A stretch of 64,000 bases of DNA, from contig CALUSR010000004.1 in the NCBI GenBank assembly GCA_944323485.1, forward strand, positions 62,001 to 126,000, given 5' to 3'. The notes under the pieces are model-generated. The model was not told the DNA's origin, searched no databases, and saw only the letters and a program-made list of their open reading frames with translations. A program made the translations under genes and the position numbers. The DNA is from Candidatus Gastranaerophilales bacterium. GTDB taxonomy: Bacteria; Cyanobacteriota; Vampirovibrionia; Gastranaerophilales; CAJFVJ01. Shown here piece after piece: positions 58,129 to 61,650 of the stretch (within the stretch, counting starts at the first letter, position 1; each line of letters opens with the position of its first letter).

Positions 58129-58590
58129 CTATTTATATTCTTTATCAGAAACAGGTCCAAGCCAGGTTGTTTCGTTGTTTGGAATATTAGTTTCTATTGA
58201 AATATGAGCAAACCAGCTGTCAGGAGCAGCGCCATGCCAGTGTTCAACATTAAGAGGAATTCTTACAACATCTCCTTTTTTCAGAATTTGTATTTCTTTT
58301 CCTTTTTCCTGATATCTGCCTTCTCCAGCAGTGACAAGAAGAATTTGCCCGCCTGAATGTTTATGCCAGTTTGTTCTTGCTTTTGGTTCAAATGTAACAT
58401 TTGCAATAGAAGAGTTCCAGATGGAATCATTTTCGCTGAGTCTTGTCAGATAAGTTGTTCCAGTGAAAAATTTGTTATATGGATTTATATCGCCTTTTTT
58501 GAATGGTTGTTCAAGTTCTTGTGACATAGCAAGATTTCCTCCTGTAATAAATGTTGTCAATACTAATAACATCAGTAGTTTTTTAATCAT
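58129..58590 (-). CDS. Exported cupin-domain protein
   Basis: 153 residues with a signal peptide (hydrophobic about 5-19; cleavage probably near A-M-S at 21-23) and one cupin barrel. Metal ligands appear as H76 and H78 (N-W-H-K-H-S-G-G-Q), Q82 and H117 (E-H-W-H-G-A). The W-H-x-H-x-G-G-Q...H-W-H-G-A layout resembles small cupins of the mandelonitrile-lyase-like and carboxymuconolactone-associated groups. Enzymatic role unknown. First gene of a two-gene run with an iron-sulfur flavoprotein, divergent from the nrdDG riboswitch region. Confidence 0.8.
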   Translation of the reverse strand: MIKKLLMLLVLTTFITGGNLAMSQELEQPFKKGDINPYNKFFTGTTYLTRLSENDSIWNSSIANVTFEPKARTNWHKHSGGQILLVTAGEGRYQEKGKEIQILKKGDVVRIPLNVEHWHGAAPDSWFAHISIETNIPNNETTWLGPVSDKEYK

Positions 58591-58722
58591 AATAACTGCC
58601 TTTTTATTATCTGAACTTATATTTTTAGTTTATCTCTTGAGAGCGGCTATCAGTCAAGAATATTTTTAATGATTAAAATTTATTATGAAATAATTTCTTA
58701 ACTTTTAATTAAATAAAAAATG

Positions 58723-58731
58723 TGATACAAT
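58723..58731 (+). promoter_or_regulatory. Extended -10 promoter of the nrdDG transcript
   Basis: TGATACAAT, an extended -10 (TG-N-TACAAT, hexamer 58726-58731), just upstream of the riboswitch. No strong -35 is seen at 17 bases. Confidence 0.45.
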
Positions 58732-58739
58732 ATTTTGAC

Positions 58740-58835
58740 GAGGAGTAATAAGGAAAGATCAGGTGGAAATCCTGCGCTGGTCCGCAGCCGTTACAGCCGG
58801 AATGCTTATTCTTTTATTTATTGACTTACGTGACT
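58740..58835 (+). promoter_or_regulatory. Cobalamin riboswitch controlling nrdD-nrdG
   Basis: The RNA has the cobalamin core elements in order: GGAA (58752-58755), the B12-box-like GGTGGAAATCC (58762-58772), a GCTG-GTCCG-CAGC hairpin (58776-58788) matching the conserved GGTCC-CGC junction loop, then CAGCCGGAATGC (58794-58805). The peripheral domains of the large adenosylcobalamin form are missing, so it looks like a short (class II-like) variant. It ends just before the GAGGGGG ribosome site of nrdD (about 58837-58844), suggesting translational control by sequestration. Cobalamin would then repress the B12-independent reductase. Confidence 0.78.
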
Positions 58836-58852
58836 AAGAGGGGGTTGTATTT

Positions 58853-61138
58853 ATGGAAAATGTGTCAAAAAAAGACAAATCTTTGTCTGAAGTTTTTTCA
58901 TCCGAAATTGTATCAAATGCGGTAGAGAACACAAATCTTATAAAATATAAGATGGATGAAAAAGGTATTAAAACAGATAATAATATTGTAATAATCAGTT
59001 CTTCACCCAAACTGGATGCTGTAAAAGTAATCAAAAAAGACGGCACGGTCGGCAGTTATAATGTCAAAAAAGTTGTAAACGCCGTTAAGAAGTCAGCCGA
59101 ACGTATGCTGATAAAATTCAGCGATGCTGATATAGAAAAAATTTGCTCTCTTGTTAACAAAAGAGTTCTTGAACTCGGATGTGATGAGATTTATGTTTCT
59201 CAGATGCATAATATAGTAGAATCTGTTCTTGAAGATGTTAATCCTAAAGTAGCAAAGTCATATAGAGATTACAGGAACTATAAGATAGACTTTGTTCAGA
59301 TGCTTGATAAAGTTTATCAAGAGAGTCAAAAGATTATGTATATCGGTGATAAAGAAAACTCAAATGCCGATTCGACTCTTGTTTCAACAAAACGTTCATT
59401 GATATTCAACCAGCTGAATAAAGAGCTGTACAAAAAGTTCTTTCTGAATGTGGAAGAACTACAGGCTATTCGTGACGGATACATCTACATTCATGATATG
59501 TCAGCAAGAAGAGATACAATGAACTGCTGTTTGTTTGACATTGCAAATGTGCTAAAAGGCGGATTTGAAATGGGCAATCTCTGGTATAACGAGCCAAAGA
59601 CACTGCGTGTTGCTTTTGATGTAATCGGAGATGTTACCATGGCAGCGGCAGGACAGCAATATGGCGGTTTTACTCTGCCTGAAGTAGATAAAGTTCTTGC
59701 TCCGTATGCAGAGAAGTCTTATAAAGTTTATTACGAAAAATATGTATGTCTTGGTGTCCCGTTTGAAAAAGCGAGAGAAGAAGCGCTGAAAGATGTTCAA
59801 CGTGATATGGAACAAGGGTTCCAGGGATGGGAATATAAATTTAATTCTGTAGCCTCCTGCAGAGGGGATTATCCGTTCATTGCCATAACTGCTGGACTTG
59901 GAACCGGTGAGTTTGAAAAGATGGCAACTCATGCCATGTTGAAAGTCAGAATGAACGGACAGGGCAAAAGTGATTGCAAAAAACCTGTTTTATTCCCGAA
60001 AATTATTTTCTTATATGACGAAGAACTGCATGGAGAGGGAAAAAATTCCGAGGATTTGTTCAAAGCAGGTGTTGAGTGCTCGAAAAAATCAATGTATCCT
60101 GACTGGTTATCTTTATCTGGAGAAGGCTATGTTGCGAGTATGTATAAGAAGTACAAACGAGTTGTATCACCTATGGGATGCCGTGCTTTCTTATCTCCAT
60201 GGTTTGAAAGAGGCGGTTTGACTCCTGCTGATGAGAATGATAAACCTGTTTTTGTCGGGAGATTTAACGTCGGGGCGATTAGTCTTCATCTCCCGATGAT
60301 TTATGCAAAGGCAAAAAGAGAGAGCAAAGATTTCTACAAAGAGCTTGATTATTATATGGAGATGATAAGAAATCTTCATAGAAGAACTCTTGATTATCTC
60401 GGTGAGATGAAAGCATCCGTAAATCCTCTTGCTTATTGCGAAGGCGGTTTCTTGGGAGGTCATCTCGGTATTCATGATAAAATTAAGCCGCTTTTGAAAT
60501 ACACTACAGCTTCATTTGGAATTACCGCATTGAATGAACTTCAGCAGATTTATAACGGAAAATCAATCGCAGAAGACGGTGAGTTTGCTCTTGAGGTAAT
60601 GAAATATATCAACGAAAAAATAGAGCAGTATAAAAAAGAAGACGGCTATCTCTATGCGATATACGGTACTCCTGCTGAGAATTTGTGCGGTTTGCAGATA
60701 AAACAATTCCGCAAAAAATACGGTATAGTTGAGAATGTATCTGATAGAGGATATGTTTCCAACAGTTTTCACTGCCATGTAAGCGAAAATATTACGCCGA
60801 TTGAAAAACAAAATCTTGAAAAAAGGTTCTGGGATTTGTTCAACGGCGGAAAAATTCAGTATGTAAAATATCCTATTTCTTATAACACCGAGGCAATAGA
60901 AGTCTTGATAAAAAGAGCCATGGATATGGGATTTTATGAAGGAGTTAATCTCTCGCTCACCTATTGTGACGACTGCGGTCATCAGGAGTTGAATATGGAT
61001 GTCTGCACAAAATGCGGCAGCTCTAATCTTACCAAAATAGAGCGTATGAACGGATATCTTTCTTATTCGAGAGTTAAGGGGGATACACGTTTGAACGAAG
61101 CAAAGATGGAAGAAATCAAAGATAGAGTGAGTATGTAG
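58853..61138 (+). CDS. nrdD: Anaerobic (class III) ribonucleoside-triphosphate reductase
   Basis: Glycyl-radical enzyme making deoxyribonucleotides without oxygen or cobalamin. Domains: disordered residues 1-60, an ATP-cone (about 62-150; V-I-K-K-D-G-T-V), the barrel with catalytic cysteines in M-N-C-C-L-F-D (about 223-229), and a C-terminal zinc site C705, C708, C718, C721 followed by the glycyl-radical loop R-M-N-G-Y-L with G734. 761 residues, typical. A GAGGGGG site precedes ATG 58853 and the cobalamin riboswitch lies directly upstream. nrdG follows after 2 bases. Confidence 0.96.
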   Translation: MENVSKKDKSLSEVFSSEIVSNAVENTNLIKYKMDEKGIKTDNNIVIISSSPKLDAVKVIKKDGTVGSYNVKKVVNAVKKSAERMLIKFSDADIEKICSLVNKRVLELGCDEIYVSQMHNIVESVLEDVNPKVAKSYRDYRNYKIDFVQMLDKVYQESQKIMYIGDKENSNADSTLVSTKRSLIFNQLNKELYKKFFLNVEELQAIRDGYIYIHDMSARRDTMNCCLFDIANVLKGGFEMGNLWYNEPKTLRVAFDVIGDVTMAAAGQQYGGFTLPEVDKVLAPYAEKSYKVYYEKYVCLGVPFEKAREEALKDVQRDMEQGFQGWEYKFNSVASCRGDYPFIAITAGLGTGEFEKMATHAMLKVRMNGQGKSDCKKPVLFPKIIFLYDEELHGEGKNSEDLFKAGVECSKKSMYPDWLSLSGEGYVASMYKKYKRVVSPMGCRAFLSPWFERGGLTPADENDKPVFVGRFNVGAISLHLPMIYAKAKRESKDFYKELDYYMEMIRNLHRRTLDYLGEMKASVNPLAYCEGGFLGGHLGIHDKIKPLLKYTTASFGITALNELQQIYNGKSIAEDGEFALEVMKYINEKIEQYKKEDGYLYAIYGTPAENLCGLQIKQFRKKYGIVENVSDRGYVSNSFHCHVSENITPIEKQNLEKRFWDLFNGGKIQYVKYPISYNTEAIEVLIKRAMDMGFYEGVNLSLTYCDDCGHQELNMDVCTKCGSSNLTKIERMNGYLSYSRVKGDTRLNEAKMEEIKDRVSM

Positions 61139-61140
61139 AG

Positions 61141-61650
61141 ATGAACTATCATAATATAACAAAAGACGATATGCTCAATGGTGACGGGCTTAGGGTTGTT
61201 CTATGGGTAGCTGGATGCACTCATCACTGCAAAAACTGTCAAAACCCGATAACATGGGATGTGGCAGGCGGGTTGCCTTTTGATAAGGAGGCAGAAGACG
61301 AGCTTTTTGAAGCATTGGATAAACCCTATATTTCGGGGATAACTTTCAGCGGGGGAGATCCTCTGCATTTTCTCAACAGAGATGAAGTGTTCAGACTTGT
61401 AAAAAAATGTCGGGAGATGTTTCCTCAAAAGACCATATGGATTTATACAGGCTACTTATGGGATGATGTCAAGGACTGCAAGGGGCTCGAACTGGCAGAT
61501 GTCCTTGTTGACGGAGAATTTGAGGAAAAACTCAAAGATAACAACCTGCACTGGGTCGGGAGTTCAAATCAGAAGATTATTGATATAAAACAATCTCTCA
61601 AAACAGGTGAAATTGTTTTGTATCATACAACATCTTATCAGGAAGCATAA
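61141..61650 (+). CDS. nrdG: Anaerobic ribonucleotide reductase activase (radical SAM)
   Basis: Generates the glycyl radical on NrdD. Radical-SAM cysteines C26, C30 and C33 in G-C-T-H-H-C-K-N-C-Q-N, then F-S-G-G-D-P-L (about 76-82) for SAM binding. 169 residues, normal. Begins 2 bases after the nrdD stop, so it shares the riboswitch-controlled transcript, and is followed by a strong terminator. Confidence 0.96.
   Translation: MNYHNITKDDMLNGDGLRVVLWVAGCTHHCKNCQNPITWDVAGGLPFDKEAEDELFEALDKPYISGITFSGGDPLHFLNRDEVFRLVKKCREMFPQKTIWIYTGYLWDDVKDCKGLELADVLVDGEFEEKLKDNNLHWVGSSNQKIIDIKQSLKTGEIVLYHTTSYQEA

Follow-up and report, generated by a model that had tools for sequence, protein, structure and literature searches.

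A predicted AdoCbl-II cobalamin riboswitch upstream of the B12-independent ribonucleotide reductase genes nrdDG in Gastranaerophilales, and its association with the B12-dependent reductase NrdJ

Why should genes for a ribonucleotide reductase (RNR) that does not use vitamin B12 be preceded by an RNA element that resembles a B12 sensor? The question is raised by the nrdDG operon of Candidatus Gastranaerophilales bacterium (assembly GCA_944323485.1, contig CALUSR010000004.1, positions 62,001-126,000, forward strand); this stretch of 64,000 nt, analysed as a whole, is referred to below as the window. The features of the operon and its leader are as follows.

58723-58731 (+): possible extended -10 promoter element, TGATACAAT, recognized by eye only; the RNA start is expected near 58738
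58738-58815 (+): aptamer of an AdoCbl-II (cobalamin) riboswitch, from model score and covariation
58780-58784 (+): aptamer loop L5 (GUCCG), from sequence; GUC at 58780-58782 is one half of the putative kissing loop
58825-58838 (+): P13 hairpin CUUA-CGUGAC-UAAG, with loop L13 (GAC at 58832-58834); the same hairpin and loop occur in orthologous leaders
58836-58844 (+): nrdD ribosome-binding site, AAGAGGGGG, from sequence, 8 bases 5' of the ATG
58853-61138 (+): nrdD, class III anaerobic, B12-independent ribonucleoside-triphosphate reductase, 761 aa
61141-61650 (+): nrdG, radical-SAM activating protein of NrdD, 169 aa

Both proteins score above the cut-offs of their family models (TIGR02487, 571.6 bits, for NrdD and TIGR02491, 185 bits, for NrdG) and thus belong to the class III NrdDG system. 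NrdD carries the PF13597 domain (383.7 bits) and an N-terminal ATP-cone (PF03477, 53.5 bits), and a C-terminal RMNGY and a four-cysteine motif are readable in its sequence. The -10-like element has the same letters in a second genome of the same genus (G007); a scan with a consensus promoter model did not list it. The divergent neighbour of nrdD (58132-58590, minus strand) codes for a secreted cupin that closely resembles (R)-mandelonitrile lyase, with a score of 126.7 bits, slightly under the cut-off.

Examination of the window with all Rfam models at their gathering thresholds gave no match, and a permissive-threshold search was therefore performed. Its sole credible match within 58590-58900 was to AdoCbl-II (RF01689) at 58738-58815 on the plus strand, with 30.3 bits, an E-value of 2.2e-5 for the 311 bases searched (3.5e-5 genome-wide) and coverage of all model positions (1-81). 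The helices P3, P4, P5 and P6 and the conserved joining strands of this class are all present. The score lies below the gathering score of RF01689 (36.5 bits), which counts against the assignment; four of six further orthologous leaders tested, all of type B, reach that score. The general Cobalamin model (RF00174, 189 positions) was also considered and fits the same site less well, with 20.9 bits. Because this score is so low, the large peripheral domains are taken to be missing, and the element is a compact variant, as the initial annotation had proposed.

A profile built from 33 AdoCbl-II sites of Gastranaerophilales gave 54.3 bits for the window element, compared to 9.8 bits for the best of five-fold shuffled controls. 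When the window site was left out of the profile the element still scored 51.5 bits (the next best place in the window remained under 8 bits), and when all six nrdD-type sites were left out it scored 46.9 bits. A covariance model of the nrdD leaders gave 78 bits, the window being one of the sequences from which that model was built.

The aptamer comprises P3 with an outer extension, P4 (58760-58763/58771-58774), P5 (58777-58779/58785-58787) and P6 (58788-58790/58798-58800). Pairing was assessed in 38 orthologous leaders of equal length, aligned without gaps, in which 90.9% of the cells in the aptamer helices are paired and P3, P4 and P5 covary. Changes on both sides occur in 6 of the 15 pairs, compared to 2.4 expected under shuffling, and none of 500 shuffles was as high, either in score or in both-side pairs; the signal is lost when the partner strand is slid by one to three bases. 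The window element has compensated pairs (A-U for G-C, and a C-G pair in P4), and the outer part of its P3 is altered. The aptamer core of G007 is identical to that of the window, with differences in the spacer bases. In several nrdD riboswitches of the order (L057, L066, L078, L081, L087, L093, L101, L112 and others) the P6 loop bears an insertion of 30-60 bases between GCCGU and AGUCGG. The prediction of a cobalamin riboswitch upstream of nrdD, recognizable by a significant match to a cobalamin family, is thus confirmed by model scores and covariation alike, and its position was correctly given: the aptamer proper occupies 58738-58815 and the expression platform extends as far as the ribosome site (about 58844).

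Downstream of the aptamer, the 3' strand of P13 runs into the nrdD Shine-Dalgarno sequence, an overlap that is conserved in many leaders. The GAC of L13 is complementary to the GUC of L5, giving a pairing of 3 bp and a possible fourth that would compete with P5 and P13, a point against the switch model proposed below. In relatives the loop pair covaries, reading GUU/AAC in one nrdD leader (L062) and GUGC/GCAC before btuB. Across the set, a strong match between L5 and the downstream sequence is found in 43 of 91 distinct sites; 500 permutations of L5 among sites gave 24 on average and never more than 35, in a comparison that ignores kinship. In cobalamin riboswitches the L5-L13 kissing loop stabilizes a hairpin formed by P13 and the ribosome site, as has been established in E. 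coli btuB and in env8HyCbl (PMC10653944). Judged by its letters, the complementarity in the window is this known kissing loop, joining aptamer and expression platform as in other AdoCbl-II members.

A scan of the nrdD leader for intrinsic terminators found no terminator-like site, which points to translational control. Plain secondary-structure folding did not recover the aptamer (z -0.09); its energy is -11.4 kcal/mol, as opposed to -26.2 kcal/mol for the free fold, and that of P13 alone is approximately zero. With the aptamer enforced, the ribosome site became more, not less, open. The folding models used contain neither ligand nor kissing loops or pseudoknots, and such energies do not support the OFF direction proposed below.

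If the element represses nrdDG when B12 is available, the genome should encode a B12-dependent class II reductase, and such an NrdJ, likewise predicted by the initial annotation, was found at C6:21382-23460 (L033:1135-3213). It scores 757 bits with the model of the adenosylcobalamin-dependent family (TIGR02504, cut-off 400), also matches PRK08665, and is both the only PF02867 protein of the genome and its only RNR large subunit besides NrdD. Two further AdoCbl-II sites are present. The first (C4:135077-135155, 42.6 bits, above the gathering score) precedes genes for a TonB receptor, an ABC permease, an ATPase and a binding protein that resemble BtuB, BtuC, BtuD and BtuF. No protein of the genome exceeds the cut-off of PF02310, no QueG was found, and the PF07685 matches are to short proteins, too short for full CobQ or CbiA. 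Given these gene contents, B12 is probably imported, and NrdJ is possibly the sole enzyme of this cell that depends on it, within a search that covered PF02310 and QueG.

The second site (C2:325614-325693, minus strand, 28.7 bits) sits by a gene (L195:6797-7501, minus strand, on contig C2) of an unannotated family of about 235 amino acids, and the same arrangement is seen in L003-L036. Of 25 other AdoCbl-II sites checked in the order, 24 precede this family, which is characterized by an N-terminal CPHG(L/M)xxGxCPIC and a conserved GEMSWNEC-like motif and has no Pfam or NCBIfam match. The family persists in genomes that lack NrdJ and is a candidate B12-linked protein.

The relation between switch and NrdJ was then examined in 192 genomes of the order, all of them assemblies and many incomplete, such that absence of NrdJ may in some cases represent a gap. 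When the NrdD protein was used to find relatives, these bore the names Candidatus Gastranaerophilales or Melainabacteria. An AdoCbl-II site occurs in 180 genomes, NrdD in 149 and a TIGR02504 match in 148 (136 over the cut-off). The DNA upstream of 148 nrdD genes was inspected, one locus at a contig edge being set aside. The riboswitch precedes nrdD at 73 of 87 loci in NrdJ-containing genomes, compared to 4 of 60 in genomes lacking NrdJ; for the NrdD type of the window alone, the numbers are 10 of 19 and 0 of 47, respectively. Counted by locus the association has a p-value of 8e-22, with relatives that are not independent; we therefore also counted by genus majority, obtaining 8e-4 for all loci, 0.04 for the window's NrdD type and, with the other type taken by itself, 0.24.

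Exceptions are evident in both directions. Four genomes (G019, G081, G149 and G184) carry the riboswitch before nrdD without NrdJ, possibly owing to assembly gaps, and 14 nrdD loci in NrdJ-containing genomes are devoid of it. Apart from a full-length protein in G014 and some short, weak matches in genus g32, the NrdJ-less genomes gave no other PF02867 reductase, so that with NrdD repressed by B12 they would have no second RNR to rely on. None of 20 nrdD leaders from such genomes matched any of the B12 riboswitch classes in Rfam. The nrdD leaders of G009 and G002 (L096 and L114) have no AdoCbl-II site and no Rfam match; they contain a repeated TTTAGCTAAGAGT-like motif, possibly the site of another regulator.

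Taken together, we consider it very probable that the nrdDG leader is an AdoCbl-II translational OFF switch. The nrdDG mRNA would start with the compact class-II aptamer, and binding of a B12 cofactor would allow L5 to pair with L13, the loop of the weak hairpin P13. The pairing would hold P13, the 3' strand of which overlaps the ribosome site, and translation of nrdD and of the coupled nrdG would be blocked. With B12 present, deoxynucleotides would be supplied by NrdJ; when B12 is scarce, P13 would open and NrdDG would be made. The most likely purpose of the switch is thus to turn NrdDG off when B12 lets NrdJ do the job, a logic already suggested for this locus and supported by the co-occurrence of riboswitch and NrdJ across the order. 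For the nrdD leader we infer ligand binding, ligand preference, the OFF direction and the translational level, the direction being drawn by analogy with homologues and from the biology.

The same aptamer could also act in the opposite sense or at another level, with B12 raising nrdDG expression or terminating its transcription. An activating corrinoid riboswitch is known before cobT of A. halodurans (PMC10653944), and the more open ribosome site of the aptamer-enforced energy model would agree with activation. Such a switch is nonetheless improbable here: the leader has no terminator-like site, the overlap of P13 with the ribosome site is kept in many leaders, and no benefit is apparent in having B12 activate an isoenzyme that does not need it. 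Moreover, genomes with NrdD as their sole reductase hardly ever carry the element, as expected of an OFF switch.

Somewhat less probable still is that the window element is a decayed or non-functional remnant. Its score is under the gathering threshold, and remnants do occur in the order (e.g., L155/L156 and L188). Decayed AdoCbl-II elements scoring above nearly all shuffles precede nrdD in G120, G182, G034 and G079, which have kept NrdJ, and in G016, which is without it; the nrdD leaders with such remnants are L155, L156, L164, L184 and L188. With the nrdD profile these real remnants reach 5-23 bits, whereas, as given above, the general profile gives the window 54 bits and the covariance model that includes it 78 bits. 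In the window, the invariant core positions, P4 with its compensatory changes and the L5-L13 match are all intact, and the core is unchanged in G007 although the spacer bases differ. A chance resemblance, with nrdDG under other control such as NrdR, to which RNR operons are generally subject, has next to no probability given the leave-one-out score, the covariation and the same placement in orthologues, and as regards the RNA element it is already refuted statistically; NrdR control could nevertheless operate alongside the proposed OFF switch.

The order contains a second NrdD type, only 22% identical to that of the window, which matches PRK08270 and is accompanied by an NrdG2-type activase. 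The aptamer cores before the two types have a mean identity of 0.86 to each other, compared to 0.70 to other AdoCbl-II sites of the order, and in a tree of cores the nrdD leaders are set apart from the rest with a support of 0.91, one other site excepted. Because the cores before both types resemble each other most, the leader seems, on sequence comparison, to have been shared or captured between the two NrdD families. The route was not revealed by the gene neighbourhoods, and in-place replacement of type A by type B, which was also considered, is not shown by them; in G162 a block found elsewhere upstream of type A nrdD sits at the other side of type B nrdDG. We tentatively suggest, with rather less than even confidence, that the leader is an exchangeable module of the two NrdDG systems, with their NrdG1- and NrdG2-type activases, and that turnover of the reductases depends on its state: once the switch decayed, NrdD would become constitutive and NrdJ dispensable, leading to the loss of NrdJ, or the events may have occurred in the reverse order.

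The rule that B12 represses a B12-independent reductase if a B12-dependent one is present has been proposed and little tested, and is here extended to a largely uncultured gut order. Gastranaerophilales offer a natural comparison in which the tie of the switch to a second reductase is unusually visible, the switch being common with NrdJ and very rare in genomes that have NrdD as their only reductase. The findings also suggest that the choice of reductase in these bacteria is set by the B12 supply of the gut. A search of the open-access literature found no report for Gastranaerophilales; most subscription papers lay outside that search.

The AdoCbl-II class (RF01689, formerly AdoCbl-variant) was first described from marine metagenomes (PMC2864571). 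The gut elements share its core architecture and conserved positions and, like env8HyCbl, the L5-L13 kissing loop; they differ in their habitat, in a score slightly below the gathering level and in the P6-loop expansions of some relatives. B12 control of nrdDG has itself already been proposed, and the present system is classed with that known kind. For the delta-proteobacteria Desulfovibrio vulgaris and Desulfuromonas, B12-elements preceding nrdDG in genomes that also encode NrdJ, and a regulatory logic like the present one, were put forward in 2004 (Rodionov et al., PMC545781), a precedent that the initial annotation does not mention; a cobalamin riboswitch upstream of nrdD is mentioned in a passage on Candidatus Chlorobium antarcticum, where translational control is proposed for Chlorobi (PMC8620254). 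The arrangement in the latter is alike, in another phylum. Desulfovibrio vulgaris and Desulfuromonas likewise combine a B12 riboswitch before the NrdDG genes with NrdJ; they belong to another phylum and use the general B12-element, whereas Gastranaerophilales use the compact AdoCbl-II class. To these systems Gastranaerophilales add the association with NrdJ, including how rarely the switch occurs in relatives without NrdJ, a series of decaying elements, and a leader shared by two distant NrdD families.
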